NCBI RefSeq assembly: GCF_002161355.1
Contig: NZ_NFHL01000004.1
Location: forward strand, 1-64,000
Reading direction: 5' to 3'
Source of the DNA: Lachnoclostridium sp. An76
Lineage (GTDB): Bacteria > Bacillota > Clostridia > Lachnospirales > Lachnospiraceae
Length of the DNA: 64,000 bases
Position numbers and translations under genes: made by a program. Within the stretch, counting starts at the first letter, position 1. Each line of letters begins with the position of its first letter. The notes beneath the pieces are model-generated. The model worked only from the letters and a program-made list of their open reading frames with translations, was not told where the DNA came from and ran no database searches. This document shows, in pieces, positions 5,043 through 37,316 of the stretch.

Positions 5043-6497
5043 ATGAAAGAACAGACAAACAGGAAAAAACATAAAAAAATACGCCGTTACCGCAAAGTCG
5101 GATATTCGTTCCTTTCCGTCTACGCAGTGGCGGCAATGATACTGATCACATTCTGCGTCAGGCTGGGCATGGTACCGGGGGGATATCTGGCAGCCCTGGG
5201 CGGAGTCCTCGCTGTTTTGGGCGGGCTGTTTGTGCTGATGCAGAGAAGGAAAGTGTGGTCCATTATTTCGGATGTGCTGTGCGTGCTGCTTACAGTGTGC
5301 TGCATCGCAGGATGCTTTTATATCGGAAAGGCTGATACGACAGTGCGGGATGTGGCGCGTGTGACCTCAGAGACAGACGAGGTGGGGGTCTATGTGCTGA
5401 CGGATGATCCGGCGCAGGATATAGAGGATGCGGCGGACTACCGCTTCGGTATGGCTGAGGCAGTGGACAGGGAGAACACAGACGCAACGGTTGCGGATAT
5501 AGAGGAAGAGTTAGGCAGAGAGCTGGATATCGGCGGATACGGAGATATGTTTAAGCTCCTTGACGCGCTGAAGGAGCAGGAGGTCAGGGCGATCATCCTG
5601 AACAGCGCATATGTCCCGGTCGCGGCGGACGCGGGGAACTATGCGTGGGTGACGGACGGGCTGCGCCAGATCGCGTCCTATACACACGAGACCGGGGAAG
5701 AGACTGCGGCGGAACCGTCGGAGGATAACAACTCCTTTATCGTATACCTGAGTGGGATCGACACATACGGAGAGGTGTCGGCGCGCTCGCGGAGCGACGT
5801 GAATATCCTTGCGGTCGTTAACACAGAGACTAAGAATGTGCTGCTCTTATCGACACCGAGGGATTACTATGTGGAGTATTCAGCGACCGGCGGTGCGAAG
5901 GACAAGCTGACCCATGCGGGGATCTACGGTGTGGACGCGTCCATCGACGCACTGGAACGGCTTTACGGAGTGGATGTCAATTATTACCTGCGGGTGAACT
6001 TCACCGGTTTTACCCAGATCATCGATGCGCTGGGCGGGGTGGACGTGTACTCGCAGTATGATTTCACTGCGGGCGGCAGGCAGTTTTCCCAGGGATATAA
6101 TACGGTCAACGGTACGGAAGCACTGTCCTTTGCGAGAGAGAGGTACAGCTTTGAAGACGGGGACATCCAGAGAGGACGGAACCAGATGGAAGTCATCCGC
6201 GCTGTCATCAAAAAAGCGGCATCTTCTTCTCTGCTCGCTAATTATGCGGCGGTAATGGATGCAGTATCAGGAAGCTTCGAGACAAATATGCCGCAGGAGA
6301 AGATCGCAGAGCTCGTAAGGATGCAGCTCTCGGATATGGCGTCATGGAATATTACGACCTATACAGCGGCAGGGCAGGTCTCCACCGGGGAGACATACTC
6401 AGCACCCGGGGAGATGCTCTCGATCGTCATCCCCGATGAAGCCAGTGTGCAGGAAGCGAAAAACATGATCAACTCAGTCCTGAACGGGGGAGAATGA
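5043..6497 (+). CDS. LytR-CpsA-Psr (LCP) family cell-wall polymer transferase
   Basis: LCP enzymes move undecaprenyl-pyrophosphate-linked polymers (capsule, teichoic acid) onto peptidoglycan outside the membrane. The N-terminus is basic, then has three hydrophobic segments within residues 18-95, followed by an external accessory region. The LCP core starts near residue 250 and shows NILAVVNTETKNVLLLSTPRD, a KLTHAG...YGVD segment, and FARERYSFEDGDIQRGRNQ with the arginines that bind pyrophosphate. Its last 25 bases and stop codon form one copy of the 28-bp direct repeat that bounds the downstream island. The gene probably belongs with the polysaccharide genes at 21.9-26.5 kb. Confidence 0.92.
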   Translation: MKEQTNRKKHKKIRRYRKVGYSFLSVYAVAAMILITFCVRLGMVPGGYLAALGGVLAVLGGLFVLMQRRKVWSIISDVLCVLLTVCCIAGCFYIGKADTTVRDVARVTSETDEVGVYVLTDDPAQDIEDAADYRFGMAEAVDRENTDATVADIEEELGRELDIGGYGDMFKLLDALKEQEVRAIILNSAYVPVAADAGNYAWVTDGLRQIASYTHETGEETAAEPSEDNNSFIVYLSGIDTYGEVSARSRSDVNILAVVNTETKNVLLLSTPRDYYVEYSATGGAKDKLTHAGIYGVDASIDALERLYGVDVNYYLRVNFTGFTQIIDALGGVDVYSQYDFTAGGRQFSQGYNTVNGTEALSFARERYSFEDGDIQRGRNQMEVIRAVIKKAASSSLLANYAAVMDAVSGSFETNMPQEKIAELVRMQLSDMASWNITTYTAAGQVSTGETYSAPGEMLSIVIPDEASVQEAKNMINSVLNGGE

Positions 6498-6500: not shown

Positions 6501-6620
6501 AGTGATGCTTTTGATCGAATGAATAGGTGTATATATATTCGCCGAGAACAGAAAAGAAATATTTATGCAGAGTAAAGATTGGTAAAAATATACAAAAAAA
6601 ACTGCTTTTTATGAAAAATA

Positions 6621-6649
6621 TTGATATAACAGATTGTTATCGGTATAAT
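6621..6649 (+). promoter_or_regulatory. sigma-A promoter with palindromic operator
   Basis: TTGATA at 6621-6626 and TATAAT at 6644-6649 are separated by exactly 17 bases. A perfect inverted repeat, ATAACA-gat-TGTTAT (6626-6640), fills the spacer, a classical place for a repressor to bind. It is the only strong promoter seen ahead of the island operon. No obvious helix-turn-helix regulator is encoded in the island. Confidence 0.75.
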
Positions 6650-6800
6650 ATCACTGTGGTGTATCTTTTGGGGGATCATGGGCATACTTTGGTACGGAGG
6701 AGGCATTGATTCACAGATTAAAGATGAGCGTTATAGCGCATTTACCACAGAGGTATGGGGACCCTTGCGTGAAGAAATCGGATTGATTAGGAGATTTAAT

Positions 6801-6980
6801 ATGAAAATTAGACAGATGCAGCGGGGTGGCGGCGCAGAGCTGCCTCGCGCCGGGAAGAAGAGAAGCCTGCATTCTTCAGCGGGTGGAGTGAAACTGCCGG
6901 TGAAAAAGGAAAATTCATATGATGCACCGACACAAGATTACAGCCATTCATTTGGTTGGAAGCATTTTGATAAGAAATAG
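6801..6980 (+). CDS. small basic protein of unknown function
   Basis: A 59-residue reading frame starts at an ATG placed seven bases after TAGGAG. The product is lysine/arginine-rich in its first half (IRQMQRGGGAELPRAGKKR) and aromatic near the end (SFGWKHFDKK). I do not recognise it. It lies between the operon promoter and a Rho-independent terminator that begins at its stop codon, so it may be a leader peptide or a small regulator. In-frame upstream starts exist but lack a ribosome site. Confidence 0.45.
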   Translation: MKIRQMQRGGGAELPRAGKKRSLHSSAGGVKLPVKKENSYDAPTQDYSHSFGWKHFDKK

Positions 6981-7004
6981 ACTGCGGAAGCGGTCTTTTT
7001 TTTT
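6980..7004 (+). terminator. Rho-independent terminator / attenuator ahead of island operon
   Basis: GACTGC-GGAA-GCGGTC forms a six-pair stem (one G-U pair) followed by nine T residues. It begins at the stop codon of the small basic gene and ends 27 bases before the first large island gene. Transcripts from the promoter at 6621 would have to pass it, which suggests attenuation. Confidence 0.75.
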
Positions 7005-7030
7005 ACTAAAAATGATGAAGAGGGGAAAAG

Positions 7031-9898
7031 ATGAACAAGTTCAAAGGGATGTTGTTTACCTTAAAGAAGAGAATAGAAAACATTTCTGAAAATGATAATG
7101 ATTATTATAAGTATATGATGATGGGATACTATGATGGGCTTGATATTAATACTGTAGAAAAATGGTATACAATGAGGCCGCGTGGTTTGCGTGAACGTAA
7201 CCTTCAGGTGGATATCTCGTCACCTTTTGTAGATCAATACACGATACGTGCTTTTTTTCCTGCAAATAGAGAGGAACTTGAAAAGTACGGATTTGACTAT
7301 CAGATATGGGATAAGATTGGAGATACAGGATTAGAGGAATTTAAAAGAAATGTGTGGGATGAGAGAAAGAAAAAACCGTATATATGTATGTCAATTCTGA
7401 ATCTTGCGAATCCAGTTTTATTCGGCGCTAACTTAAGTAATGTTTCGGAAATGCTGAAAGACCGCTTGATCGAGTCCGCAGAGAATTCGGAGATATCATT
7501 GGCGGAACTGCATTGTGCTGTTTTTCCGAGTATTGGATACATAGATTACATAGTGCTTTTTTTGACACAAGATCTCAAGAAAGTGTCAAAAATATTGAGT
7601 GGATTGCGAAAAGAAATCGAAACTCAAATACTGATATCAGGTGTTTATTCTGTCTGTGGAATAGACAGTGCAGTTACTGGCTGCGGGAATGCAGAGGAAC
7701 ATACCGATGTTCAGATTGCCCTATATATTAATTTGCGTGAAGGAATATCGGTGGGAAATTTTATCCGGGGACTGGATGATGAAATAGACGGGATAAAAGG
7801 ACAATTGTCAGGATATAGAAAGGAGTTGGAGTGTCTCCGGCAGGAACTTGAAGAAAATGTGTATCTTACATTTGGATATTCAGACTCAATGATTGTATTG
7901 TATAAATCCATCAGTACTTATAAACAACTGTATGCAGAAAATCATATATTGAATCCAGGGCATGGATTTTATAAAAAATACATTGCGAATCTGAGGACAT
8001 CTGTGCGTATCAAAGATAGAGAGATAATACTGGAAACTGCAGAAATGACACAAGACATCTCAGGGCCCGGCAATAAATTTTGCCAGTATGACGAGTTTGT
8101 CAAACAATATTCTTCTTTTTTGGAGAAAAATAATTTTCCGGTCAGGACGGCTATTGGATTAAAGCAGATAATGAAAAATTATCTGAATATTTCATCGCTT
8201 GTCAGGAGCTTTGATATATCAGTAGTAGTGGGAGAGGCTTTTTCTGCCCTTATAAATGCTGTTACATATTATATTAACAAATCAATGGAACTGCCGGATG
8301 AAATAAAAGGGGATGCCGAGAAGAAAGAAAATTATACAATTAAAATCAAAAATGAATATGCGCAGACGGTAGAAGCGGTTAAGCTTTTTAAAGAAAATAT
8401 AGGGGATTTTATTGCCGATTTAATGAGATCGGACTGCGCTTTTATCGAAGGAAATACACTGTCGCATCCGGCAATCGGTTCAGCTACAAAATTACTTTTT
8501 GCATATACAGAGCTTTTAAACAGGTTAACGATGGAATATAAAGAGGAAGACAGGATTCGGTTTATTGTGATCAGCGGCGGTTGTGATAAGACAGAATCTG
8601 TAGATCTGTTTTCGTTTGCATCGCCTGATGAGATTGAAAATATTAAAAAGCTGATCATAATATCAATACCGGAGATGAGTCTGTATGATGTGCAGGGAAC
8701 CTTATTCCGTATTCTGCATGAATGCATGCATTTTGTCGGAGACAGATGTAGAAAAGAACGGTACAACTATATAATCAGAGCTTTATCCGCATATATGGCT
8801 CATGATATTGTGAGTATAAGATTCAGCGAAAGTTCTTTGGAGAAGTATATAGAATGTGCGGTAAATGGATGCGATGGAGAAAGTGCTTCGGAGATAGCCG
8901 AAAAGTTCAGCGAAAGTTTTGGCAGGATTGCTGTTAAGGCAGAGCAGGATATGCAGAAGGTAATAGTGGATCACAGACTTTATCAGGAGTATCTGAAGTA
9001 TAGAAGTGATATATATTATCACAGAGGTGTAATGTTCTGTAATGTGCTGAGGTTTGAACGCCTGGCAGACAGCCTGGCATCAGGCAGTCTCATAGAGAAA
9101 ATTTATGAAATCTTGTGTGTGAGACGAATAGAATTGTTAGAAAGTTTTACAGAAATCCTTAATTGCCTGTACAAAAAAGAAAGAGATATGAATACGGACA
9201 AAGCGTTGAGACTTCATGCTTCTATCCGTCAGTTCAGCTTGCATTTATGCCGGTGCAGGCATATTATGGACGTCAGTGAATGTGATCAGATCGAGATGCA
9301 ATTTATAGAGGATTATTTCGAGTCCTTTTTATATCGGGCTATAGACAAATCGACAAAGTTAGAGCAGTTTTATACAGAAATTGCAGATTCAATTGTCTCG
9401 GCAATGGTTGAGTGTTATTCAGACTGTACTGCCATAGCATTAACAGGAATGCCGGCAGAGGATTTCCTTCTTTCATTTATGTATGAACTATGGGATGTTG
9501 ATCAGGCGTTCCCGGACAATCTTAGTGATGCCCTGCGTATGGGGACAGATCTGAAAGTGATGTATGGAATTGAAGGACGCCTTGGGGAAGAATTGGAGAC
9601 GCAGATTATAAGAAAAGTAGAAACGAAGCAGGAAAATGGATATGTGTACAGGCACATTTCGGAGATGATAGAGAGGATTAATTTTTTGCTGAGTCAGTAT
9701 CAGAGTGAAAAGTTTAAGGGAATAGCCCAAAATGTAGAAGGTTACATAAGAGAAATATGTACTCATCAACAACAGGATGATTATTCTGAACTGAAAGAAA
9801 TGTATAGAAAATGCACATTTAATGACGACAGTGAGGATGAGAATGTATATGTTTCCATCAGCTCGATGCTGCGGATGTGGAAAGAACTGGGGGATTAA
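7031..9898 (+). CDS. 955-aa protein with HExxH zinc-peptidase signature
   Basis: The family is not recognised. Residues 563-567 are HECMH in the helix-like context LFRILHECMHFVGDR, a zinc-metallopeptidase signature. Downstream, E794 in MVECYSDCTAIALTG has the E-x-x-x-D form of the third ligand in gluzincins, so a zinc peptidase is plausible. The first 350 residues hold three strands with G-Y-x-D: GYYDGLDI near 32, GYIDYIVLF near 166 and GYSDSMIVL near 288. These resemble ferredoxin-like modules and recall CATRA-type conflict proteins. The middle is helical. The gene is AT-rich, starts after AGAGGGGAAAAG, and is directly followed by the SIR2 gene. It could be an effector protease, or a sensor that cleaves its neighbours. 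Coding status is certain; function is inference. Confidence 0.7.
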   Translation: MNKFKGMLFTLKKRIENISENDNDYYKYMMMGYYDGLDINTVEKWYTMRPRGLRERNLQVDISSPFVDQYTIRAFFPANREELEKYGFDYQIWDKIGDTGLEEFKRNVWDERKKKPYICMSILNLANPVLFGANLSNVSEMLKDRLIESAENSEISLAELHCAVFPSIGYIDYIVLFLTQDLKKVSKILSGLRKEIETQILISGVYSVCGIDSAVTGCGNAEEHTDVQIALYINLREGISVGNFIRGLDDEIDGIKGQLSGYRKELECLRQELEENVYLTFGYSDSMIVLYKSISTYKQLYAENHILNPGHGFYKKYIANLRTSVRIKDREIILETAEMTQDISGPGNKFCQYDEFVKQYSSFLEKNNFPVRTAIGLKQIMKNYLNISSLVRSFDISVVVGEAFSALINAVTYYINKSMELPDEIKGDAEKKENYTIKIKNEYAQTVEAVKLFKENIGDFIADLMRSDCAFIEGNTLSHPAIGSATKLLFAYTELLNRLTMEYKEEDRIRFIVISGGCDKTESVDLFSFASPDEIENIKKLIIISIPEMSLYDVQGTLFRILHECMHFVGDRCRKERYNYIIRALSAYMAHDIVSIRFSESSLEKYIECAVNGCDGESASEIAEKFSESFGRIAVKAEQDMQKVIVDHRLYQEYLKYRSDIYYHRGVMFCNVLRFERLADSLASGSLIEKIYEILCVRRIELLESFTEILNCLYKKERDMNTDKALRLHASIRQFSLHLCRCRHIMDVSECDQIEMQFIEDYFESFLYRAIDKSTKLEQFYTEIADSIVSAMVECYSDCTAIALTGMPAEDFLLSFMYELWDVDQAFPDNLSDALRMGTDLKVMYGIEGRLGEELETQIIRKVETKQENGYVYRHISEMIERINFLLSQYQSEKFKGIAQNVEGYIREICTHQQQDDYSELKEMYRKCTFNDDSEDENVYVSISSMLRMWKELGD

Positions 9899-11179
9899 AT
9901 GAAAGTTCAGGATATTTTATTTGAACAGATGTATAGAAATAATGAAGCAAGGTTGAATAGATTGAAAAATAATCTGGAAAGAGAAGATTCGGAAAGTGAG
10001 TGGGCATTATGTCTGGGAGCAGGTATCAGTATTTCAGCAGGGCTGCCTGATTGGTATGGGCTTTTGGCGAAAATGACTGCACAGATCATTCCGGATGAAA
10101 TGATGTTTGAACTTCAGAATAATACAAGGGCGTGTCAGCTGGATGCTTTTGGTTCTGGCCGAACTGAAAGTGATCCGAAGACTGATGATGAGGCGTTTCA
10201 GGTGGATGTACAGAGATTTTTTGAAGAGTTAAATGCAGCCGGGGGCAAGACAGAGTATCTGGAAAAATTGGAATCTGCCCAGAACGGGAAATATAAATAC
10301 GTTTTTGCGAATATCAATGTCCTGGAGTCGGCGGAATATATCAGAAATTACATTGCTCATCTGCTTCAACCTGAAAATAATTCTAAAGAAAGTAAAGGAA
10401 CGGCAGAAAGAAATATTAACTGGCATATTAATTATTTTATCCATCAGAGCTGTTTGCAAAGCCTGAAATATTCTATGGATAGCGAAAAAATGAAAAAGTC
10501 AGCTCTGGGAGCGGCTGCCAGATTGCTTAAAAGTGATAAGGATTCAATCATACACGATGTGATCACATATAATTATGATAATCTGCTGGAAGAATATTTG
10601 CGGACAAACTGTGGGTGTGATGCTGCTAAAATACATTCAGTCATAAAGACTGATGTATTGCCTCGGTTTGGTGACCAAGGGGCATGGAATATTTATCATG
10701 TACATGGACGGATACCGGTTTTTGAGTGTGAAAGTGAGCCGATGAGCGAGGAAGTAATCCTGACAGAATCGGATTATTATAAAGAAGAACGCATTAATTA
10801 CAGCTGGACAAATACAATCCAGTCATATATTTTAGGTCGTGCGAATGTAATTTTTATCGGATTCTCAGGAACAGATTATAATTTTCGGAGACTATTGAAA
10901 TATATCCGTCAGGACAAGAGCAATGCGCATAAAAGATATATTTTTTTCTCTGTTGATGATATTGTTAATGCAGTATTTGGCAATCGGGAAAACATTGATG
11001 ACAGTGTTTCACAATGCATAAAAAAGATGAATCAGAATGAGGGCAGTTATGCTTATGAGAAATTGATGATTAATTACCTGATCCATGCTCAAACACTGTA
11101 CTGGTATAAAAATGGGATGGAGGTAATATGGACATCACACGAAGAATTACCGTATAATCTGGACAGGATGCATTTGTAG
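9899..11179 (+). CDS. SIR2-domain protein, predicted NADase
   Basis: This 426-aa protein has the SIR2 Rossmann signature of defence-type sirtuins. GAGIS at residues 40-44 is followed by GLPDW; N225-Y-D227 sits in ITYNYDNLLE; the catalytic-type histidines lie in HVHG (H267, H269); and GFSGTDYNFRRLL comes near the C-terminus. Family members such as ThsA and DSR degrade NAD+ and stop growth when phage is sensed. It starts immediately after the stop of the HExxH gene. The last 60 residues are unassigned. It probably supplies one of the killing activities of the operon together with the TIR protein; that role is inferred from family and context. Confidence 0.85.
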   Translation: MKVQDILFEQMYRNNEARLNRLKNNLEREDSESEWALCLGAGISISAGLPDWYGLLAKMTAQIIPDEMMFELQNNTRACQLDAFGSGRTESDPKTDDEAFQVDVQRFFEELNAAGGKTEYLEKLESAQNGKYKYVFANINVLESAEYIRNYIAHLLQPENNSKESKGTAERNINWHINYFIHQSCLQSLKYSMDSEKMKKSALGAAARLLKSDKDSIIHDVITYNYDNLLEEYLRTNCGCDAAKIHSVIKTDVLPRFGDQGAWNIYHVHGRIPVFECESEPMSEEVILTESDYYKEERINYSWTNTIQSYILGRANVIFIGFSGTDYNFRRLLKYIRQDKSNAHKRYIFFSVDDIVNAVFGNRENIDDSVSQCIKKMNQNEGSYAYEKLMINYLIHAQTLYWYKNGMEVIWTSHEELPYNLDRMHL

Positions 11180-11263
11180 ATGTGTTCTGGTAAAATGGAA
11201 GGGATGATAAAAAACATGGAAGAAATTCTGGCAGGTATGAAAAGGAGAGAAATCTGGAAATGA
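11180..11263 (+). CDS. 27-residue coupling peptide between SIR2 and TIR genes
   Basis: An ATG directly follows the SIR2 stop. The 27-codon frame, rich in Met, Lys and Glu, ends with a TGA that overlaps the TIR start (ATGA). No strong ribosome site precedes it. It may act only to couple translation, or the arrangement may be chance. Confidence 0.3.
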   Translation: MCSGKMEGMIKNMEEILAGMKRREIWK

Positions 11264-11832
11264 GCAATATAACGATAAATATGGGGACAATGAATGGTAA
11301 TATTATCCAGACAGACTGCGCAGGGAATTGTGGTTCAGGGAAAGAACCCGAAAATTCCAAGGAAAGATGCAGCCAGGATAAGGAACTTCAGAAATATGAA
11401 TTTGATATCGCAGTTTCCTATTCCAGTGCGGAGACAAAATATGTTTCCAGGGTGGTTAAGATTTTGAAAAAGGAAGGGCTGAGAGTATTTTTTGCGCCTG
11501 ATTGTGAAGAAGAGTTTATGGCACGAAATATGATATCAGAATTTTATGGGATATATCGGTATAGAAGTATGTTTGTGGCAGCCTTTGTTTCAAAATCTTA
11601 TGTGGAGGGAGATATTACTATGAATGAAGCGTCAGCCGCCATGATCCGGGAAAAAGATGAAAAAAGGAATTGTCTGATACCGATTTATATGGATGATGCA
11701 AAGCTGCCTAAATTAGATCCGGATATTAATTATATTCCTGTAAATGGCAAAAATGGCAGCCTCACAGAAATCGAGACGGCTGATAAGATTATACGAATTG
11801 TAAAAGGATATGTTAGAGGAAGAGAAAAATGA
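11260..11832 (+). CDS. TIR-domain protein with N-terminal NxGxxxGxIxQ motif
   Basis: The protein is 190 aa. Residues 45-185 form a TIR domain: EFDIAVSYSSAETKYV, then GLRVFFAPD, a MISEFYGIYRYRSMFVAAFVSK strand-helix region, and E123 in MNEASAAM, the position of the catalytic glutamate in NAD-cleaving TIRs. The first 20 residues carry INMGTMNGNIIQ, a beta-type motif repeated in the next protein. The ribosome site AAAGGAGAG is strong. TIR domains of this branch cleave NAD+ or make signalling nucleotides. With SIR2 beside it, either a signal-and-effector pair or two effectors are possible. Its stop overlaps the next start by four bases. Confidence 0.85.
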   Translation: MSNITINMGTMNGNIIQTDCAGNCGSGKEPENSKERCSQDKELQKYEFDIAVSYSSAETKYVSRVVKILKKEGLRVFFAPDCEEEFMARNMISEFYGIYRYRSMFVAAFVSKSYVEGDITMNEASAAMIREKDEKRNCLIPIYMDDAKLPKLDPDINYIPVNGKNGSLTEIETADKIIRIVKGYVRGREK

Positions 11833-13307
11833 GCGATGTGACCATGGATAGAAAATCAGGAGACGATGGGAAGAGACAGGACATTCTGGATATGATCACA
11901 GAACCGATTACGGAAGCTGAGAAAGCGGAGCATCTGAAGATTAGCGTTGATAATGGGGGCTCGCCTGTTAATATGATCGTAAATCTTGGATCTATACATG
12001 GAGATATAGCGCAGCATCATGTCAGAGGTTCAGATGAAGAAGCAGGATCAGTATGCCTGGAGAGGGTAAAGGATCTTGGGGACTTTATACAGATACATAA
12101 AAACACGCACACAGTTCCTGTTATGATCGTTACTGCTGTCTTGGAGACGATCCCTGAACATTTGCTCTCTTCATTATGCCAGCAGTTAGAGAGGTGGATC
12201 AGCCGCTTATCTGGCGGCGGGGGAAAGACGGAAAAAACAGATACCGGATACGCGTCCTTAAAGGAGATACTCGCGCTCATTAAGGCAGAAAAGATCGATG
12301 CACAATTGAGAAGGGAAGGGACCGCGGTTCCGATCCGATGCGTTGTGTTTACGGATCCTTCTTACCCGGAATGGATCAGAAGAGAGATTTGGGCGGATTA
12401 TTTTGAATTGAGAGAGGCTGTCACCGGATGGCTAATGGAGTTGAAAGATGACCCTGCTGTAAATGTGATCTATTATCAGGTGGTAAAAGGCATTTCCGAA
12501 CTGGCAGTCCTGGATTGTGTATACGCAGTTGAAAAGTTTATCGATCCGGTAGATAAGCCCTGGCGGGCTGACCGGATCGGATATATAGTGAAGGTACTCG
12601 GAACGTTGAGAAAAAGCACGCAGCATAAAGAATATGTTGAACATTTGCTGTGTACGTGGCTGAAATCGAGGGAACCATACTGGAGAATCGCATATCAGAT
12701 GTATGATCCGTCTGTGTGTACTCAGTGGTACGAAAAATTACTGCATGATAAATTATCGGAGGAGATCAGGCATGATGTGGATGCACTGCGGGAAGAAGAA
12801 AATGAACAACATCGGATATCAAAAGGCTATCTTCTCGTACCGGCCCGTATCAATCTGGCAGCGGCTCATATGCTTGCAGCAGTTTTGGAAGAAATATTTT
12901 CAAAGGCGGGAACGAAGCCGGAAAAGGGTGAAATTGTCATATATTTTTTGAGCTTATTTCGGGAGGATTATCTGTATACAAATCCTCAGCACCGAAAAAT
13001 GCTTTTTATTGATTTATGCAATCAAAGGGAAGAACGGCATCTGCTTGAAGGCATCCTTGTGTTCGCGTGGCGGGATATCAGATATAGAAATGTAATGGCG
13101 CGCATTTTCTTACAGCATCTTGGAGATATGAAAAAGACTGCGGACTGGGAATATATGCAGTGGTTTTTTAAAACCCTGGGATTTACCGGAAGAGAGAGAG
13201 ACCACTATAATATGCGCTATATGCTGGAAAGGAGCAAGGCTGAGCTGGCAGGAGAGGCCCTTGATTGGTTTAATAAAATTACAAAAGAACGGAGAAGAAC
13301 AAAGTGA
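11829..13307 (+). CDS. alpha-helical adaptor-like protein sharing the TIR N-terminal motif
   Basis: The family of this 492-aa protein is not recognised. Near residue 45 it has VNLGSIHGDIAQHH, matching the TIR protein's INMGTMNGNIIQ at N, G, G, I and Q. The following 400 residues look almost wholly helical, with amphipathic repeats rich in Trp/Tyr-Leu pairs, as in HEAT- or TPR-like scaffolds. No catalytic motif or membrane segment is visible. The shared motif suggests it binds the TIR protein or a common partner. Genes on both sides overlap it by four bases, so expression is coupled. Confidence 0.6.
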   Translation: MSDVTMDRKSGDDGKRQDILDMITEPITEAEKAEHLKISVDNGGSPVNMIVNLGSIHGDIAQHHVRGSDEEAGSVCLERVKDLGDFIQIHKNTHTVPVMIVTAVLETIPEHLLSSLCQQLERWISRLSGGGGKTEKTDTGYASLKEILALIKAEKIDAQLRREGTAVPIRCVVFTDPSYPEWIRREIWADYFELREAVTGWLMELKDDPAVNVIYYQVVKGISELAVLDCVYAVEKFIDPVDKPWRADRIGYIVKVLGTLRKSTQHKEYVEHLLCTWLKSREPYWRIAYQMYDPSVCTQWYEKLLHDKLSEEIRHDVDALREEENEQHRISKGYLLVPARINLAAAHMLAAVLEEIFSKAGTKPEKGEIVIYFLSLFREDYLYTNPQHRKMLFIDLCNQREERHLLEGILVFAWRDIRYRNVMARIFLQHLGDMKKTADWEYMQWFFKTLGFTGRERDHYNMRYMLERSKAELAGEALDWFNKITKERRRTK

Positions 13308-14248
13308 TCAGGAAAACATATAATCCAATTTTAAGACAAGAAACATATAAACCGAATTTTTTTGCGAAAATACCTGAGCCCGGGATCAATAGCGCGATCC
13401 TGCTCATCCCGGGGGATGATCTGAGACAGGCGCTGTGCATAACTGCAGGGACTGATATCAGACCGTCTGATCTGCGGAAAAAGGCATATAACCGTCTTAT
13501 TGAGATAGATACGGCGGATCATTATATAGAAATAGAGCTCACCCTTTTGACAAGAGATAATGTGTCCAGTTTTATTCTCACAGCAGGAATGACTGCCAGA
13601 GTAACAGATCCGGCTGTTTTTCTGGAGGAGGGGATTACTAATGCCGCAGAGAGGGCTGAAAAAGAGTTAAAACAAATCTTTGAAGAACTGGCTGATGAGT
13701 TTGAACCGGAAGAATTCCGGGAATTCCGTGAAGCGGCGCGCAATGAGATTTCCCATTTTACACTTACAAGATGTGGGCTTTCTTTGAGCGGCGGGACTGT
13801 CAATGTGCGGGGAGACCAAAAATATCAGGAATTTTTGCAGAAGAAAAAAGATATTGCGCGGCAGAAAGAGCTTGAACAGGTAAAGGCAGAGGCTGCCCGG
13901 CAGCTGTCCGGCATATATGCGGATATGATAACAGCTGTGTATTCCGAAGTGGCAGACGGTAAGATCACAGCTGCGGAGGCTCAGAGAAAAATAAAGCAGA
14001 TAAAAGACACTGATTTTAATGTGGGAATGCAGCAGAGAGATCAAGTGCTTGAATTTTTCACGAAAATGCGGGATGCAGGTATAGCAACGGAAGAAGAGCT
14101 CCAAAAACAGATTGAATTGCTGACCGGCGGGATCGCTATTCGGACTGAGGCGGGACGGATTACGGGACCTGAAACCAGGGGGATTGAGAAAAATGAAGAA
14201 AACGGCGGGGATTCTTCTATTTATGCCCCATTTGATGATGATGAATAA
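13304..14248 (+). CDS. SPFH/band-7-like protein with coiled coil (tentative)
   Basis: This 314-aa protein has a beta-rich N-terminal half (ILLIPGDD, YIEIELTLLTRDNVSSFILTA) ending in TARVTDPAVFL. A long amphipathic helix follows, then the phrase RCGLSLSGGTVNVRGD, then a charged coiled coil (about residues 180-270). Strands, a DP turn, a helix and a G-L-x-L strand are the order seen in SPFH/band-7 domains, which scaffold membrane patches, but the match is by eye only. The tail is acidic. It overlaps the adaptor gene by four bases and precedes the membrane SH3 gene by 43 bases. Confidence 0.5.
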   Translation: MIRKTYNPILRQETYKPNFFAKIPEPGINSAILLIPGDDLRQALCITAGTDIRPSDLRKKAYNRLIEIDTADHYIEIELTLLTRDNVSSFILTAGMTARVTDPAVFLEEGITNAAERAEKELKQIFEELADEFEPEEFREFREAARNEISHFTLTRCGLSLSGGTVNVRGDQKYQEFLQKKKDIARQKELEQVKAEAARQLSGIYADMITAVYSEVADGKITAAEAQRKIKQIKDTDFNVGMQQRDQVLEFFTKMRDAGIATEEELQKQIELLTGGIAIRTEAGRITGPETRGIEKNEENGGDSSIYAPFDDDE

Positions 14249-14291
14249 ATATAATGTTTTTTATCGGTGAGAAACGTGAGAGAGGATAAAA

Positions 14292-15011
14292 ATGGATATA
14301 TACTATGCTGTATGGGCACAGATGAGTAACTGGACGATTAACCAGAGAGCAATTTTAGTATTGGGGGTCGGGTGCCTGATTTTTGTTGTTTTTTTAAAAT
14401 TGATCGGATTTAGGCTGGCTGCTCTTTTTTTATGGATTCTGAACTGGCTTCTGAAAGCAGTTTTTATTTGTCTGTCAACTCTGTTTTCTATCCGGGCTTA
14501 CGGGGCGGGCGCAAAGAGATGGAATCGTATTAGCGGAGGATTCGAGAAAGTTTCCCTGTTTTTGGACAGGTGGAAAGAAGCGGCGCTCCAACCGAATAAG
14601 AAAATAGCGGGAAAGATATTGATATTGTATTGCTTACTTCTGATCTGCGTGGTCGTCCCCGGTTGGCTGGGAAAGGTTATGGATACGGAATATGTTGAGA
14701 AAGTGTCTGGAATACGTAATTTGTATATGAAGTGTGAACAGATCCCATTGGAAAAAGCAAAAGCTTATGCCCCTCTGATCGATCCGGCGGAGACTCAGGT
14801 GCAGTCGGAGCGGATCCTGAAGCTGTCGGAGCGGGGTGTGCCGGGAGCGAATATCAGAACAGAACCGAATCCGGACAGTGGAAAGATAACTGTAATTTGG
14901 GGAGATGCTCAAATGACATATATACGAGAGCAGGACGGTTGGATTTATGTCAGGCTGTCTGATGGTACTGAAGGGTGGATAAGAGATTATCTTGTGCAGG
15001 ATGCCGGATAA
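14292..15011 (+). CDS. membrane protein with external SH3-type domain
   Basis: Of 239 aa, residues 18-66 contain two hydrophobic helices in close succession and residues 108-128 a third. The C-terminal 70 residues read as a bacterial SH3 (SH3_3) domain: GANIRTEPNPDSGKI, then the WGDAQMTYIREQDGWIYVRL and TEGWIRDYL strands. With three membrane spans, the SH3 part would lie outside and could contact the cell wall. It is the last gene of the island operon, ending just before the right direct repeat. It might sense envelope damage or be a membrane effector. Confidence 0.65.
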   Translation: MDIYYAVWAQMSNWTINQRAILVLGVGCLIFVVFLKLIGFRLAALFLWILNWLLKAVFICLSTLFSIRAYGAGAKRWNRISGGFEKVSLFLDRWKEAALQPNKKIAGKILILYCLLLICVVVPGWLGKVMDTEYVEKVSGIRNLYMKCEQIPLEKAKAYAPLIDPAETQVQSERILKLSERGVPGANIRTEPNPDSGKITVIWGDAQMTYIREQDGWIYVRLSDGTEGWIRDYLVQDAG

Positions 15012-15020
15012 AAGGATCAG

Positions 15021-15270: not shown

Positions 15271-15315
15271 GGTAAAATATAACTATATTATACGCTAAAT
15301 TTGAAGATAACAGTG

Positions 15316-16059
15316 ATGGTGAATAATTTGAAAGAAACGAAGATCATTGTCTGTGATGATGAAAAGAGAGACCGGGAAGAACTGGTCCGGGACATTAAGG
15401 AGGTCTGGCAGGACCCTGTGGTCGAGGAGGCACAGAGCGGAGAGGAGGTGCTCCGGAAACTCGGGAAAGACGGGGATTATGACTTCGTATTCCTTGATAT
15501 TTATATGGATGGGATGAATGGGATCGAGACAGGCAGAAAGATCCGGGGTGAGTTCCCGGATATCCCGCTCGTGTTTGTGAGCAGCAGCAGGGAATTCGGC
15601 CCTGAAGCTTTTGAGCTGAATGCGTCTCATTATCTCCTCAAGCCGTATAAAAAGCAGCTTCTCGCCGAGATACGCGACAGGTTCAGTGTCCCTGACAAGA
15701 GCGAGATCACGTTTTACGATACGGGCAGCAGGCAGGAGGTGACAGTCCCATGCAGGAGGATCGCGTACATAGAGAGCGCGCGGAATTATATTTATGTCCA
15801 CCTGTCTACAGGCGCGGAGCTGAAAGTGCGCAAGAGCATGCAGGAAGCTGAGGAGGAGCTTGACGGCAGATTCCTCCGGATCAGCAGAGGCGTGATCGTA
15901 AATATGGATGCAGTGGAGAGGATGAATTATGATTCCTGCGAGATCGATGGTATGACATTTATGCTGAGCAGGGGACAGCGTATGGAATACAGGAGAAAAT
16001 ATAATGATTATATTTTCAGCCGATATATGGATATACCGGGGGGTAAACGAAAGCAATGA
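15316..16059 (+). CDS. LytTR response regulator (AgrA type)
   Basis: The receiver domain has the KIIVCDDE acidic pocket, the phospho-acceptor Asp in VFLDIYMDG, a VSSS switch threonine/serine segment and LLKPYKKQLL with the conserved lysine. The C-terminal LytTR DNA-binding domain begins near IAYIESARNYIYVHL and ends with RISRGVIVNMDAVERM. Regulators of this type bind direct repeats upstream of peptide or polysaccharide operons. The start is uncertain: ATG 15316, TTG 15301 and TTG 15328 all lack a strong ribosome site. The stop overlaps the kinase start by four bases. It probably controls the PqqD/radical SAM genes in the same operon. Confidence 0.9.
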   Translation: MVNNLKETKIIVCDDEKRDREELVRDIKEVWQDPVVEEAQSGEEVLRKLGKDGDYDFVFLDIYMDGMNGIETGRKIRGEFPDIPLVFVSSSREFGPEAFELNASHYLLKPYKKQLLAEIRDRFSVPDKSEITFYDTGSRQEVTVPCRRIAYIESARNYIYVHLSTGAELKVRKSMQEAEEELDGRFLRISRGVIVNMDAVERMNYDSCEIDGMTFMLSRGQRMEYRRKYNDYIFSRYMDIPGGKRKQ

Positions 16060-17441
16060 TGGATTATGGAATATGTAGTTATACAGTGGTCCAGTTCTGC
16101 GGGTACCTGCTCCAGCTCCTGCCGCTGCTGTTCCTGTTCTATGTCCCTTACAGCCAGGAACTCCTGCGCTTCCCGAAAAGAAGGATACTGCTCTGCCTGT
16201 CGGTCTTTTATGTGATAATGTCCGCGCTTTCAGCAGTATTTCTGAGCGTGCAGGTGTGGCAGGGAGCGGATGTGACGGCAGTGAGATGGGCTGCGAACAT
16301 TTTGTTCCTGACGGATATCGTAGTGGGGACGGTCGTCTATTTTAACAGCTTCCGCGTAAAAGCGGGCGGGACGGTTTTCTTCTATACGGTCGTGCTGGAA
16401 TACGGCATCATACTCTACATATTAAATGAGATCTGGACAAGGTTCGTGCCTGCTGTGTCGGAGAATTTCGCTCCGTATGATATCACGACTCTTCTCGTAT
16501 ATGCTGTATGTACGGCAGTGACATATCCTGCCATTTACCGTTCGCTCATAAGGTTCAAAGCGAGGAATCTGTGGGAGATAAGCCGGAGAAATCTGCGTAT
16601 GATCACGATCTGCGCGATCATCATCGTCCTCCTGACTATGGTGGCTCTCCAGATGGAGGTCGGTCTCCGCGGATTACACAGCAGCATGACGGAAAAAATC
16701 TATGAAAGCATCCTGCTCGGATGTATCCTTCTGGCAAATGTGATCTCATATGTGATCTACTTTTTCTGTATGGTGCTGGAGCAGGAGAGGGAGCGGATGG
16801 CGTCCAGGGCTTCCGCATATGAAATGCAGTATGCAAGTGTGCGTGAGGGGATGGACAGGGAACGGCGGATGCACCATAATCTGAGACATCATTTCCGGAC
16901 GCTGGGCGTACTCGCGGCGGACGGGCAGAATGAGGAACTGCAGGAATATATCAGGGGCTATATAAAGGAACTGGTTGATTTCGAGCTGAGGAAAGTATCG
17001 GGCAATCCGGTCATTGACAGTGTGCTCAGTTATTATATCCAGCAGGCAGAAGAAGAAAAGATAAATGTAACCTGCGATATCCAAGTGCGAGGAGATTATC
17101 TGTTCGATATCAAAGATATGACCGTGCTGATCGGGAATGCGATGGAGAACGCGCTGAAGGCATCAGCGGGCTGCGCCGAAGGCGCGGGATATATCAGATT
17201 CGTGATGAAACAGTACCGCCAGAGTATCCTCATCAAGATAGAAAATAAGGTCTGCCCGGGAAACATCATCGGGAATCCGGAGAGAAAACGGACAGAGAGA
17301 AGTTACGGGCTCGACAGTATCGAACTGATAGCGGAGAAGTATGAAGGGAGCATGGAGGCATGGCAGGAAGGGGATGTATTTATCCTGAGAGTCGTGCTGA
17401 ATATGCCGGATCGCAGAGAAAAAGGGAGTGATAAGGGATGA
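16056..17441 (+). CDS. GHKL sensor histidine kinase (AgrC type)
   Basis: Of 461 aa, the first 230 form about six hydrophobic segments, as in AgrC-like peptide sensors. A coiled stretch leads to the phospho-acceptor region RRMHHNLRHHFRTLG. The GHKL ATPase domain has the N box NAMENALKAS and the G box SYGLDSIELIAEKYEG. It pairs with the overlapping LytTR regulator. No AgrB or AgrD gene is nearby, so the signal may be the product of the adjacent peptide-modification genes or an envelope cue. It overlaps the PqqD gene by four bases, so sensing and modification genes are co-expressed. Confidence 0.9.
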   Translation: MMDYGICSYTVVQFCGYLLQLLPLLFLFYVPYSQELLRFPKRRILLCLSVFYVIMSALSAVFLSVQVWQGADVTAVRWAANILFLTDIVVGTVVYFNSFRVKAGGTVFFYTVVLEYGIILYILNEIWTRFVPAVSENFAPYDITTLLVYAVCTAVTYPAIYRSLIRFKARNLWEISRRNLRMITICAIIIVLLTMVALQMEVGLRGLHSSMTEKIYESILLGCILLANVISYVIYFFCMVLEQERERMASRASAYEMQYASVREGMDRERRMHHNLRHHFRTLGVLAADGQNEELQEYIRGYIKELVDFELRKVSGNPVIDSVLSYYIQQAEEEKINVTCDIQVRGDYLFDIKDMTVLIGNAMENALKASAGCAEGAGYIRFVMKQYRQSILIKIENKVCPGNIIGNPERKRTERSYGLDSIELIAEKYEGSMEAWQEGDVFILRVVLNMPDRREKGSDKG

Positions 17442-17764
17442 AGCTGAAAGACGGGCTGATCCTCAGGGAGGTGGCAGGGCAGTATGTCATCGTCCCGACC
17501 GGGAAGCGGGTGCAGGAAGTGACCGGCGTCCTCTATATGACAAAACCCGCAGCGTATCTTTGGGACTATATGCAGAGCCATGAATTTGAGAAAGAAGATC
17601 TGATCAGATTGACGCTGGAACGATATAAGGATGCCACGCGCGAACAGGTCAGCGGCGATCTGGACAAATTTTTGAAAGGACTGGCAGATAAAGGTGTTTT
17701 GGAGATTGAAGGCCAGATAAACGGCAGCTTCAGCGTGCGCCTGCCAAAGAAGATAAATGAGTGA
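17438..17764 (+). CDS. PqqD-like peptide-binding (RRE) protein
   Basis: The 108-aa protein matches the PqqD fold. A short beta hairpin (LILREVAGQYVIVP) is followed by AAYLWDYMQS, helices around DLIRLTLERY, and a final wing (FLKGLADKGVLEIEG). PqqD-type RiPP recognition elements hold the leader of a precursor peptide for a radical SAM enzyme. The stop overlaps the start of just such an enzyme by eight bases. Its substrate is unknown. Confidence 0.85.
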   Translation: MKLKDGLILREVAGQYVIVPTGKRVQEVTGVLYMTKPAAYLWDYMQSHEFEKEDLIRLTLERYKDATREQVSGDLDKFLKGLADKGVLEIEGQINGSFSVRLPKKINE

Positions 17765-18794
17765 GACACAGTTTGGACCCGCCTGCCGCAGGATGGAGTG
17801 GCTTGATCCGTTTTATAAGGCGGTGTGGGAAAAAGCATATGCAGACGCCATACCTATATCCGGGACATTCGAGCTGACGCCCAGATGTAATTTTAACTGC
17901 CGGATGTGTTACGTACACTTGCCGGAAAATGAAATAGAACGCCATGGGGCGGAGCTGACTGCGAAGGAATGGGTCAGGATCGCGCAGGAAGCGAAAGAGG
18001 CCGGGACGACATGGCTGTGCATCACGGGCGGAGAACCTCTGATGCACCCGGGATTTGAGACGATCTGGCAGGAACTGACGCAGATGGGATTCTTTATTAC
18101 GCTGCAGACGAATGCGTCTCTGGTCACAAAATATGACAAGCTGTTTGAAGAGTGCCCGCCCCGCGCTTGTAAGATTACTCTGTATGGCTCAAATGATGAT
18201 GTCTATCGGGACGTGTGCCGGGTAGAAAAGGGATTTACAAGAGCGGATGAAGGAATCCAAATGCTCAGAGAAATGAAGATTCCTGTTGAATTGGTCAGTA
18301 CCATAATACAGCAGAATCTGGACGATGTGGATAATATCATAAGGTATGTCGGTGGGAACCGATTCCGCTGGATACCGAATATCAATGTAAGGACTGCCGG
18401 GCGCGGTGTGGATGTAGATATGGAGCATCTGCGGATCAAGCCGCCGGCGAGAGAAAATCCGGCTGATAAAGATGAAGGCAAAGAAAAATACAGGATGGAT
18501 CCGGACAGAAAGCCATGTACATATTGCCGGGATTACCGGCTGGGCTACTGGATTGTCTGGAATGGATATATGAGATTCTGCAGTTTTATGAATGGTCCGG
18601 ATATTCCGGTGAGGGAAAAGAGTTTTAAAGAGTGCTGGGAGGAGCTGGTTGAATTCCAGGAAGGACTGCAGTGGCCGGAGGAATGTACAGAATGTGAATA
18701 TCGATGGAACTGCACAAGATGTGCGGCGCTGTTTGATATAGAGGATGGAAGATTGAAGATAAGAGATGAATTTTGTGTCAGTAGGAAGGAGTAG
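17757..18794 (+). CDS. radical SAM/SPASM-type maturase
   Basis: The 345-aa enzyme has the radical SAM cluster motif CNFNCRMCYVH near residue 44 and the glycine-rich ITGGEPLMHPGF. A cysteine-rich C-terminus (CTYCRDYRLGYW, FCSF, ECTECEYRWNCTRC, EFC) would hold one or two auxiliary iron-sulphur clusters. Such enzymes install thioether, carbon-carbon or similar crosslinks in peptides delivered by PqqD-like proteins. The last part of the gene is AT-richer than the first. The stop is immediately followed by the candidate substrate gene. Confidence 0.88.
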   Translation: MSETQFGPACRRMEWLDPFYKAVWEKAYADAIPISGTFELTPRCNFNCRMCYVHLPENEIERHGAELTAKEWVRIAQEAKEAGTTWLCITGGEPLMHPGFETIWQELTQMGFFITLQTNASLVTKYDKLFEECPPRACKITLYGSNDDVYRDVCRVEKGFTRADEGIQMLREMKIPVELVSTIIQQNLDDVDNIIRYVGGNRFRWIPNINVRTAGRGVDVDMEHLRIKPPARENPADKDEGKEKYRMDPDRKPCTYCRDYRLGYWIVWNGYMRFCSFMNGPDIPVREKSFKECWEELVEFQEGLQWPEECTECEYRWNCTRCAALFDIEDGRLKIRDEFCVSRKE

Positions 18795-18800
18795 ATGATT

Positions 18801-19226
18801 ATGGAAACAATAAATGGAACATCACCGACTATACAAGTGGAAAATGGTTATATAGATGACGGGGGAATTGCGGTATTTTCAACTACGGATGATACAGTTA
18901 CTGGCGGATCAATAAAAAATCCTGATGGCTCATATTTTGATGCTTATCAGATCTTGTGGACAATAACTCGGGTACCAAGTGGCGATGGCTATACATATAC
19001 TGGTGGAATAACGGGGGATTATGGATGGTATTTCGCTGAATCGAGTAGTCCGTTTTATGGATATAATATAGAAGCTGTGGCAGCAGAAGCATTTCCTCCG
19101 GGACCAGGTAATTTAAATCGGTTTTTTACAGATTGGTTAGCCAATACTTCTTCAGATGAAAAATATACATTTTTGCATGAGAAAATGCAAAATGCAAGAT
19201 ATTGTCTACATTATTCAGGCAGTTGA
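18801..19226 (+). CDS. candidate substrate of the radical SAM enzyme, 141 aa
   Basis: The family is not recognised. I chose the ATG at 18801, nine bases after AAGGAG, over the ATG at 18795 that touches the radical SAM stop. The protein is acidic and rich in Gly, Tyr, Thr and Ser (GDGYTYTGGITGDYGWYF), with one Cys near the end, and has no signal peptide or membrane segment. Its place between the maturase and the HprK-like kinase is that of a precursor, but it is longer than most precursor peptides and could be a small beta-rich partner instead. The gene is clearly AT-richer than the flanking operon. Confidence 0.5.
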   Translation: METINGTSPTIQVENGYIDDGGIAVFSTTDDTVTGGSIKNPDGSYFDAYQILWTITRVPSGDGYTYTGGITGDYGWYFAESSSPFYGYNIEAVAAEAFPPGPGNLNRFFTDWLANTSSDEKYTFLHEKMQNARYCLHYSGS

Positions 19227-19243
19227 TAAAATATTAAGTAGTG

Positions 19244-20026
19244 ATGTATAAAGTAATATCAATTTATATAGAGTTTACAGGAATACAAGGTTTAAATTGG
19301 AGTCCCTTTACCACTAATAAAAAGCACTCTCCTAATTTTACGGTAAGGACATTGGCAGAGAATAATATTTCTTATCATGGAATAGAAAATTATAAGATGA
19401 TTTCAGGATATAAATATCTATTGCGATGCAATGGAGATATCATGCTTGCAGACAAAACCTGGGAACATGCGGTCATTCTCCCCTTGCAGGAGCGGACACA
19501 CGCTGACAGTTTCCTCTGCCAGTTATTCTATACCCATGCCGTCCAGCGGCACATTATCTATCTCCACAGTTCCCTGATTGACTTCCAGGGACGCGGGCTC
19601 ATGTTCTTGGGACCTTCCGGCATCGGGAAGACCACCCAGGCAGAGCTGTGGAATAAATATCGTGATGCCCTTATCATCAACGGCGATGTGGTCTTTGTCC
19701 AGGAGGCAGAAGATACATTTCTCGGCTGGGGAACTCCGTGGCACGGCTCGTCGCCATATTGCGAGAATGCAAGTGTTCCGGTACATGCGATGATCGTGCT
19801 GAAGCAGTCATCAGAAAATTCGATCCGGGAGCTGACCGGCTTTGAGAAAGTTACTGCAGTGTCAACCAGTGTTTTTTATCCGCGGTGGCTGGAAAACGGC
19901 ATGGAGCTCTGCCTTGAGACGCTTGACCATTTCCTGAGCAGAGTCCCGGTCTATGAATTATCCTGCCGTCCTGATGAGGACGCGGTCAAACTCACAGAAG
20001 AGGCGGTCTTCGGATCGCGATTATAG
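19244..20026 (+). CDS. HprK-like kinase domain protein
   Basis: From residue 95 on, the protein resembles the C-terminal domain of HPr kinase: IIYLHSSLIDFQG, a P-loop GPSGIGKTT, and NGDVVFV with the conserved Asp. Relatives in peptide-modification clusters phosphorylate precursor peptides or other small substrates. It lacks the usual HprK N-terminal domain. The first 65 codons are strongly AT-rich and the rest GC-rich, with a sharp change near 19440. No ribosome site is evident; GTG 19241 and ATG 19244 are both possible. Confidence 0.75.
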   Translation: MYKVISIYIEFTGIQGLNWSPFTTNKKHSPNFTVRTLAENNISYHGIENYKMISGYKYLLRCNGDIMLADKTWEHAVILPLQERTHADSFLCQLFYTHAVQRHIIYLHSSLIDFQGRGLMFLGPSGIGKTTQAELWNKYRDALIINGDVVFVQEAEDTFLGWGTPWHGSSPYCENASVPVHAMIVLKQSSENSIRELTGFEKVTAVSTSVFYPRWLENGMELCLETLDHFLSRVPVYELSCRPDEDAVKLTEEAVFGSRL

Positions 20027-20137
20027 CAGAGATCCCATCCTGTATCTGGGGGAGATGCAGAGCAATGAAGACGTTCTGCCGCCCGGCTGATGCGGGAAGG
20101 GGATTTTTTGTTTAAAGGGGAGTGTAAAAACATACAT

Positions 20138-34158: not shown

Positions 34159-35160
34159 AAAATGTACAAAATTGTTGTGGGTGGTTTGAGTAAAACTGCC
34201 CATAGTTTTTTCTGCCCGGATATGCTATGATTAAGTCCACCTGATCCCCGGTCATGGGGATCAAACTATCAGTTTCAAATTCATTTTATTTCAAGGCTGG
34301 TTCAGCCGGTTATTCACAGATGTGAGACGTGAACTGCAAAGGAAAGGAGTGAGGAGCAGGAGCTGTTTATTTATTGTAAATCAAAAGCAAAAATACTATA
34401 ATCAAAGGAGAAAAGCTTATGGAAGAAAAAACAAAACTGAATATGCAGATGTATGATGCTGAGAGTATCCTTGCTCCCCTGCAGAAGCTGAACCTGATGG
34501 ATGATTTCCTGTTTGATGCTGCCACCGGGGATCTGGAAACATGCAGGATCATTATCGAACTGTCACTGGGCATCAGGATCCGTAACATTGCCTGGAAAGA
34601 AGGACAGAAGGTGATCCGCAATCTTCCGGGGAACCGGGGGATCCGGATGGATTTCTATGTGGGTTCGACCTTTATGGATATGGGCTGTACCGATATACAT
34701 TTGACAACCGGTGCAAAGAGCTCCCGGATCTGGTCATGGGAGACGAATGCAGCAAGATCATCCTGAATACGAAGGGGAAAAATGAAGACAGAGTAGACAG
34801 GGCGCTGATCGATTTTTTGCATTACGTGGAAAAGAGCAGCGACGAGAATGTGCCGGAAGACTGTGATGAGCGTTTGAAACATCTGCATAAAAAGATTCAC
34901 CAGATCAAAATGAGTGAGGAGATTGGAGTGAGTTATATGAAGATGGAAGAACGCGACAGATTGATAAGAGCAGAAGGAAGAGCAGAAGGCGAGGCCCGGC
35001 TGGTCGGTGTTATCCGAAAAAAGGTTTCAAAGAACATGTCGGCTGCTGATATTGCAGACTGGCTGGAGACAGGGCGTGAAGAGGTGGAGAGAACAATAGA
35101 GCTTCTTGGAGCGCATCCTGACTGGACGGACCTTCAGGTCGCGGAAGAACTGCTGGGCAG
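34159..35160 (+). repeat. 1-kb direct repeat, copy 1
   Basis: This segment repeats at 36263-37287, offset 2104 bases. It is nearly identical for about the first 800 bases (including leader and ATG), then diverges moderately with a 30-base indel. It includes a GATCCCC-GGTCAT-GGGGATC hairpin (34243-34262) upstream of the decayed nuclease gene. Confidence 0.92.
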
Positions 35161-35188
35161 GGGAAACCTTGCCAAATTCGATGCGTAG
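34419..35188 (+). pseudogene. Rpn/PD-(D/E)XK transposase-family nuclease, copy 1, internally deleted
   Basis: The 5' frame gives the usual beginning of this family (LMDDFLFDAATGD, RIRNIAWKEGQKVI, GIRMDFYV). At about 34664 the frame changes, and the family's middle (FDLYGYGLYRYTFDNRCKELPDL) follows at once, then VMGDECSKIILNTKGK and the normal C-terminus. The core between, expected to hold the catalytic Asp and E-x-Q, is missing. The product should be inactive. The C-terminal part could still be translated from an ATG at 34736. Confidence 0.8.
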
Positions 35189-37287: not shown

Positions 37288-37316
37288 AGGAAGCTACATC
37301 AGAGGGGCAGGAGTAG
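36523..37316 (+). pseudogene. Rpn/PD-(D/E)XK transposase-family nuclease, copy 2, same deletion
   Basis: It carries the same internal deletion and frame change (near 36768) as copy 1, so the gene decayed before it was duplicated. The C-terminal part is longer by ten residues (LRRGKAEGRAEGEARL), closer to the normal family tail. No active site is expected. Confidence 0.8.

Follow-up and report, generated by a model that had tools for sequence, protein, structure and literature searches.

Two adjoining gene cassettes of Lachnoclostridium sp. An76, with SIR2 and TIR proteins, as candidate defence modules

Gene content of the locus

The DNA stretch analysed here, hereafter the window, comprises 64,000 nucleotides (nt) and forms the first part of a 277-kb contig (NZ_NFHL01000004.1) of Lachnoclostridium sp. 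An76. A sequence-only reading had pointed to six neighbouring genes in it as one possible defence operon, encoding a protein with an HExxH motif, a SIR2 protein, a TIR protein, a helical protein (here termed HEL), an SPFH-like protein and a membrane protein with an SH3 domain. Comparison with other genomes, among them gut-type bacteria that have one part and not the other, indicates, with high confidence, that these genes belong to two separate, adjoining cassettes and not to one six-gene system; a role in defence, proposed in the same reading, still appears likely for both.

We define module A as a small gene together with the genes for the HExxH and SIR2 proteins, and module B as the TIR-HEL-SPFH-SH3 series; the features of the two modules given below all lie on the forward (+) strand. 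The small gene of module A (59 amino acids (aa), 6801-6980, with AGGAG before its ATG), which the sequence-only reading had overlooked, is followed by the genes for the HExxH protein (955 aa, 7031-9898) and the SIR2 protein (426 aa, 9899-11179). Module B comprises the genes for the TIR protein (190 aa, 11260-11832), HEL (492 aa, 11829-13307), the SPFH-like protein (314 aa, 13304-14248) and the SH3 protein (239 aa, 14292-15011). The six larger open reading frames (ORFs; 7031-15011) all run in one direction, as originally described, and the reported overlaps of 0-4 bases are present at three of their five junctions, the SIR2-TIR and SPFH-SH3 junctions having gaps of 80 and 43 nt, respectively. 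Likewise, the claim that the genes are AT-rich holds for the 7-12 kb interval (36-39% G+C) and not for the 12-15 kb interval, where 44-45% G+C lies inside the range of the remaining 1-kb blocks of the window (42-57%).

The SIR2, TIR and SH3 domain calls are backed by Pfam (SIR2_2, 7.6e-18; TIR_2, 5.4e-11; SH3_3, 8.2e-10), and no Pfam family scored above the cut-off in the HExxH, HEL and SPFH-like proteins of the window. Promoter-like sites that agree with the consensus at 11 of 12 positions lie ahead of module A (TTGATA-17-TATAAT, 6621-6649) and ahead of module B (TGGACA-18-TATAAT, 11129-11158); each is weak on its own, because the region contains 37 such sites against 24.5 (sd 3.9) in shuffled sequences, a modest excess. 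Terminator-like hairpins show a similarly modest excess (6 found, 4.5 expected), and Rfam had no matches in the window.

Separate occurrence of the two modules

Neighbourhoods of homologues were read by eye and then checked with phmmer, and repeated records were merged before counting (L011, L019 and L039 all stand for the same Hungatella locus and L020, L054 and L060 for the same Hominisplanchenecus locus, and L017 and L055 are likewise a single locus). The HExxH-SIR2 pair lacks the TIR, HEL, SPFH and SH3 genes in both further distinct loci that contain it, L019 of Hungatella hathewayi (genome G206) and L020 of Hominisplanchenecus murintestinalis. The SIR2 gene directly follows the HExxH gene in each, and phmmer with the module B proteins found none of them in these two loci. 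Conversely, the genes of module B occur in the same order, without HExxH and SIR2 genes, in both of their further loci, L023 (genome G321, 19.5 kb read) and L040 (genome G847, a 15.1-kb contig). The sequence-only reading had staked its proposal on homologues of the six genes recurring together; in these few loci the full set did not recur, whereas each of the two subsets did.

A single integrated six-gene system would account for the common strand and the adjacency of the genes in the window, and in described systems NAD+ is acted on by SIR2 and TIR domains alike. Against it, the two modules stand together in the window only, among the loci examined, and in none of the four others, and they are separated by the 80-nt gap with its promoter-like site; we consider such a system very improbable. 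The division itself has the small number of loci against it, three for each module with the window included, and the genome sets searched are samples.

The HExxH protein had nine matches in 397 genomes of the family, including that of the window itself, and the other full-length one is from Hungatella (G206). Two peptide patterns run against the contigs of an 84,980-genome collection, a scan that detects close relatives only, gave 61 pattern matches, two of which are relatives: Hungatella again, and H. murintestinalis, in which the gene pair comes after genes that, in our reading, encode ribosomal proteins and the alpha subunit of RNA polymerase. The SPFH-like protein had two matches in 299 genomes of the family (the window and G321), and a two-row SPFH profile matched three of 391 genomes of the class (the window, G763 and G652) and two of 37 genomes of the genus of G321 (G321 and G847). 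The match in G652 (L028) was rejected as chance, as no other module gene lies nearby and the start of the ORF resembles, by eye, a signal peptide. Across the window, L023 and L040, the module B proteins are 20-33% identical, and none of the 12 pairwise scores was reached in 200 shuffles. Plasmids yielded no match for the HExxH, HEL or L023 SPFH-like proteins, phages none for the L023 SPFH-like protein (the sole query used there), and viral contigs no relative of the HExxH, HEL or SPFH-like proteins. The same genome (C1) contains two more TIR loci, neither of which is flanked by a module gene.

The earlier statement that no described system matches these genes also stands. PADLOC 2.0.0 gave no match for the HExxH, HEL and SH3 proteins, a value of 0.034 for the SPFH-like protein and partial domain matches only for the SIR2 and TIR proteins; NCBIfam gave no full match for either gene set, and neither set was named in titles or abstracts among the matches listed by searches of the open-access literature.

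Module A: a probable peptidase and its apparently exchangeable partners

In the HExxH protein, residues H563, E564, H567, R572, R577, E794 and D798 are identical in nine of nine aligned proteins. They include the motif H563-E-x-x-H567 (codons at 8717-8731) and the motif E794-x-x-x-D798 (codons at 9410-9424), probably the one that provides the third zinc ligand. HExxH with a downstream Glu is the pattern of an active, gluzincin-type zinc peptidase, and the protein is a probable zinc metallopeptidase. A profile search of the PDB with the HExxH alignment returned no peptidase match, and an AlphaFold model from a three-row alignment had a mean pLDDT of 39.1.

Analysis of more remote relatives reveals a varied set of partners. 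Seven weak relatives were found in the 397 family genomes; in five of them the partner has a DAC (diadenylate-cyclase-like) Pfam match, above the cut-off in four, and DACNH was matched in four of these five partners, three of them above the cut-off. The partner in L012 is an intact 448-aa ORF without a Pfam match, yet related to the DAC-type partners (2.6e-22 to that of L015), and the relative in L018 is itself fused to an FRG domain (4.2e-19). Among 334 genomes of the order, five had matches to an HExxH profile: that of the window, two whose loci had been found before, and two that between them add three loci, L061, L062 and L063. The HExxH proteins of these added loci have no Pfam family above the cut-off, and no partner enzyme was recognised beside them. 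All three keep HExxH, and the downstream motif, as E..[SAT]D, is found in L061 only, E-x-x-x-D being missing from the more distant L062 and L063. The tally for the 12 distinct HExxH loci outside the window is thus six with DAC-type partners, two with SIR2, one with the FRG fusion and three with none recognised. Since the relatives adjoin DAC-type genes or carry an FRG fusion, the peptidase seems to be the fixed component of the module and the nucleotide enzyme the exchangeable one.

Small ORFs also lie next to some of these relatives. Just upstream of the HExxH-FRG fusion gene of L018 (2126-6034) lies a 57-aa ORF (6058-6231) with a good ribosome-binding site, and the HExxH genes of L061 and L063 are directly followed by ORFs of 71 aa (6998-7213) and 73 aa (8487-8708), each with a ribosome-binding site; the latter two are possible counterparts of the 59-aa gene.

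The SIR2 protein retains the catalytic residues named in the sequence-only reading (N225, D227 and H269, invariant in three of three aligned proteins). With the SIR2_2 match this places it in the SIR2 fold family, complete with the catalytic Asn, Asp and His, and an NADase activity is predicted. It can be aligned with solved entries of the DSR2 type (7.9e-5 to 4e-4) and with KomC (4.3e-4), from which it differs, at least in the case of DSR2, in being much shorter and paired with a metallopeptidase. A SIR2 profile also found eight SIR2 genes in viral contigs (L029-L036); in the five neighbourhoods inspected of the eight there was no HExxH-sized partner, and the SIR2 genes, of about 370-410 aa, stand alone amid phage tail-type genes.

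With adjacent SIR2 and TIR genes the window resembles Thoeris, in which ThsA is a SIR2 and ThsB a TIR protein, and a Thoeris-like cross-talk, with a cyclic ADP-ribose signal made by the TIR protein activating the SIR2 protein, would fit the PADLOC matches to ThsA1 (SIR2 protein, 1.5e-14) and to the ThsB1 models (TIR protein, 7.4e-5). However, the ThsA1 match covers residues 218-351 only (profile positions 103-224 of 478), that is the SIR2 part, and the roughly 75 residues after it are too few for a SLOG sensor. Moreover, the pairing is not kept elsewhere: L019 and L020 have the SIR2 gene and no TIR gene, L023 and L040 a TIR gene and no SIR2 gene, so we regard this cross-talk as highly unlikely.

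The small gene has a counterpart in Hungatella (L019 9689-9877), the protein alignment reaching a score attained by none of 1000 shuffles; the in-frame score is 62, against 24 and 24 for the other frames, and the two proteins have a C-terminal GWKH in common. A terminator-like hairpin follows the gene, between it and the HExxH gene, in the window (6979-6996, fold z -3.87), and L019 has one at the corresponding position (z -4.89). In L020, a 53-aa ORF at this position has no significant similarity (scores reached by 155 and 83 of 1000 shuffles), and no counterpart of the small gene was recognised in the DAC-type loci.

The conservation of the small gene with Hungatella and the common GWKH ending could mean that module A serves to process a peptide or to signal, in a unit where the peptidase matures the 59-aa protein and the SIR2 protein modifies or responds to the product, and not phage defence as such. 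Zincins with a small, fast-changing precursor protein beside conflict systems have been described (PMC7159879), and the FxSxx-COOH-type pairs treated there likewise combine a metallopeptidase with a small protein that has a conserved C-terminus; module A differs from them in its C-terminal motif and has no visible VMAP or FtsH ternary system. Given the dissimilar ORF of L020 and the DAC-type loci, where none was recognised, we rate this explanation as distinctly unlikely.

A parallel to module A may be found in protease-activated proenzyme pairs (PMC12799240). In the Hachiman/AVAST nuclease-protease pairs, as in module A, a protease gene is repeatedly accompanied by an effector enzyme, either a partner or an exchangeable one. 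These pairs consist of a trypsin-like protease and an MBL-type nuclease, whereas module A combines a zinc metallopeptidase with SIR2, DAC-type or FRG partners, for which proteolytic activation would have to be assumed.

The defence reading of module A is based on the SIR2 protein and on its place beside module B. Several observations weigh against this picture of the module: three of the 12 HExxH loci have no recognised partner enzyme, two of these also lack the E..xD motif, and reading L019 and L020 by eye revealed no defence neighbours.

Module B: TIR and HEL proteins with a matched tag

The TIR protein has the catalytic Glu (E123) noted previously, which is invariant in three of three aligned proteins, as would suit a TIR NADase or cyclase. 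HEL, a putative helical adaptor or sensor, evidently changes fast, because single-sequence searches found it in its own genome only (one of 58 and one of 397 genomes) and so missed the HEL of G321, although that genome was in the second set. Alignment of profiles with hhalign ties it to HEL of L023 and L040 (94.5%, 8.2e-8; 1.3% for the HExxH protein as control). Pfam recognised no NTPase or other family in the HEL proteins of the window and L040, and for lack of such a match the partner of TIR here is, by Pfam, not an NLR. HEL was also considered as an NTPase and rejected, as its GGGGKT stretch does not, by eye, fit GxxxxGK[ST]. An AlphaFold model of HEL from one sequence had a mean pLDDT of 40.5.

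The products of the adjacent TIR and HEL genes contain a matched short motif, here called the tag. In the window, residues 3-23 of the TIR protein (11266-11328) match residues 48-68 of HEL (11970-12032) with a score of 43, reached by two of 2000 shuffles. The within-locus scores for the window, L023 and L040 are 43, 54 and 61 (z 5.0, 6.1 and 7.5; 2, 0 and 0 of 2000 shuffles). The tag lies at the N-terminus of TIR in the window and at its C-terminus in L023 and L040, its partner being in every case the N-terminal part of HEL. When 318 other proteins from the collected loci compete for the tag, the top score goes to the cognate HEL in three of three loci (60 versus 34 in L040). Six cross-locus comparisons gave scores of 22-41, five of them weak (z 0.2-2.1).

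The tags could nevertheless be a chance or compositional similarity of flexible protein ends without a role in signalling. The alignment in L023 includes an E/K-rich stretch, and the margins of the first rank are narrow in two of the three loci (43 versus 41 in the window, 38 versus 37 in L023). The shuffling results and the first rank of the cognate HEL in all three loci speak against chance, and so does the change of position in TIR, which is what one would expect of a movable tag; we therefore judge mere similarity of the ends unlikely, if less so than the alternatives considered above. Besides the narrow margins, pairing confined to each locus has against it the similarity of the L023 TIR protein to the L040 HEL (z 3.5, 16 of 2000 shuffles) and another cross pair of middling score (87 of 2000).

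This arrangement recalls the bacterial amyloid-signalling systems known as BASS, in which adjacent genes share amyloid motifs and TIR is among the effectors (PMC7889193), and some bacterial amyloid-signalling motifs were noticed by pairwise matching of the products of neighbouring genes (PMC8086366). Like the NLR-effector pairs of BASS, module B has neighbouring genes with a common short motif at protein ends and a known type of effector (PMC7889193). It differs in that HEL of the window has no NTPase family match and no NLR receptor (NACHT or NB-ARC) was found, in its membrane SPFH/SH3 pair, and in that amyloid is here a conjecture; moreover, the published BASS cases are mainly from filamentous actinobacteria and cyanobacteria. 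A TIR-like NADase triggered by a phage portal (PMC13174449) is a different protein and not that of module B.

The SPFH-like protein has homologues in L023, L040 and L027 (the last in genome G763). Its name, taken from the sequence-only reading, is weakly backed: Band_7 matched the proteins of L040 (0.0013) and L027 (0.0023), both below the cut-off, and did not match those of the window and L023, and a profile search of the PDB with the SPFH alignment returned nothing. The SH3 protein carries its domain at the C-terminus and is hydrophobic at about residues 14-67 and 102-132; its orientation in the membrane is presumed.

Defence-type genes adjoin the copies of module B in L040 and L023, and this supports a defence reading of the module. 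In L040 they are an RdrB-like gene (4.6e-33) and a DUF4231 gene (2.8e-14), together with an ATPase gene that we take to be RdrA, for which PADLOC gives only QatA (2.9e-4); in L023 the neighbour is a large protein whose beginning is LmuA-like (1.2e-6). By eye, two ORFs of L040 on the opposite side of module B (12749-13872) look like fragments of the RdrB-like gene, which would fit an arrival of the module next to or inside an earlier copy of that gene.

A module-B-like set with another front end is present in L027 (3686-10108), where the genes for an SPFH-like protein and a membrane protein are preceded by a gene in which a HEL-like region (hhalign 95.2%, 2.6e-8) comes after DUF4145 (5.4e-6); the set also includes a protein with weak TPR matches only in Pfam. 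Because DUF4145 and the HEL-like region share one protein, the effector of L027 may be built in rather than tagged.

Proposed mode of action

We slightly favour a scheme in which the locus holds two cassettes of the abortive-infection type, one with a peptidase-gated SIR2 enzyme and the other with a membrane-scaffolded TIR enzyme that is recruited by homotypic tags without an NLR. In module A, infection would trigger the peptidase, or the small protein, as substrate, inhibitor or leader, would be processed; the partner SIR2 enzyme would then be released and consume NAD+, and the infected cell would stop. In module B, the SPFH-like and SH3 membrane proteins would form a membrane platform bearing HEL, which would recruit the TIR enzyme by means of the short tag that the two have in common. 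Clustering of HEL would be brought about by a phage component or by damage to the envelope, the tags of HEL would template those of TIR homotypically, in an amyloid-like or beta-arch manner, and the clustered TIR domains would attack NAD+ or turn it into a signal.

A more far-reaching version seems doubtful to us: module B would be an NLR-free, membrane-scaffolded, prion-like immune circuit, in which HEL would act as the sensor on an SPFH/SH3 envelope platform, with a tag private to each locus, so that different versions of the module would not set each other off, and module A would be one case of a wider class in which a single metallopeptidase family gates exchangeable SIR2, DAC-type and FRG enzymes. 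If true, module B would represent homotypic tag signalling that needs no NLR and is tied to a membrane platform, while with module A the gating by proteases would come to include SIR2 enzymes, and the unnamed peptidase family found next to DAC-type genes could be understood in one way. Dividing the operon also avoids naming a wrong six-gene system.

Surroundings in the window

Downstream of module B (15301-21898), ORFs read by eye as a response regulator, a sensor kinase, a PqqD-like, a radical-SAM-like and an ABC-transporter-like protein follow in a row, perhaps a modified-peptide cluster. The regulator pair has relatives in genomes G041 and G052, and in each of these the ORF at 19241-20026 also has a relative close by. 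As these relatives sit in other settings, a boundary of insertion could not be drawn. Further downstream, two short ORFs of 115 aa and 150-158 aa are present as a pair in two copies (34419-35188 and 36523-37316), spaced by about 2.1 kb. The copies begin with identical sequences, and the ORF list suggests a recent duplication.

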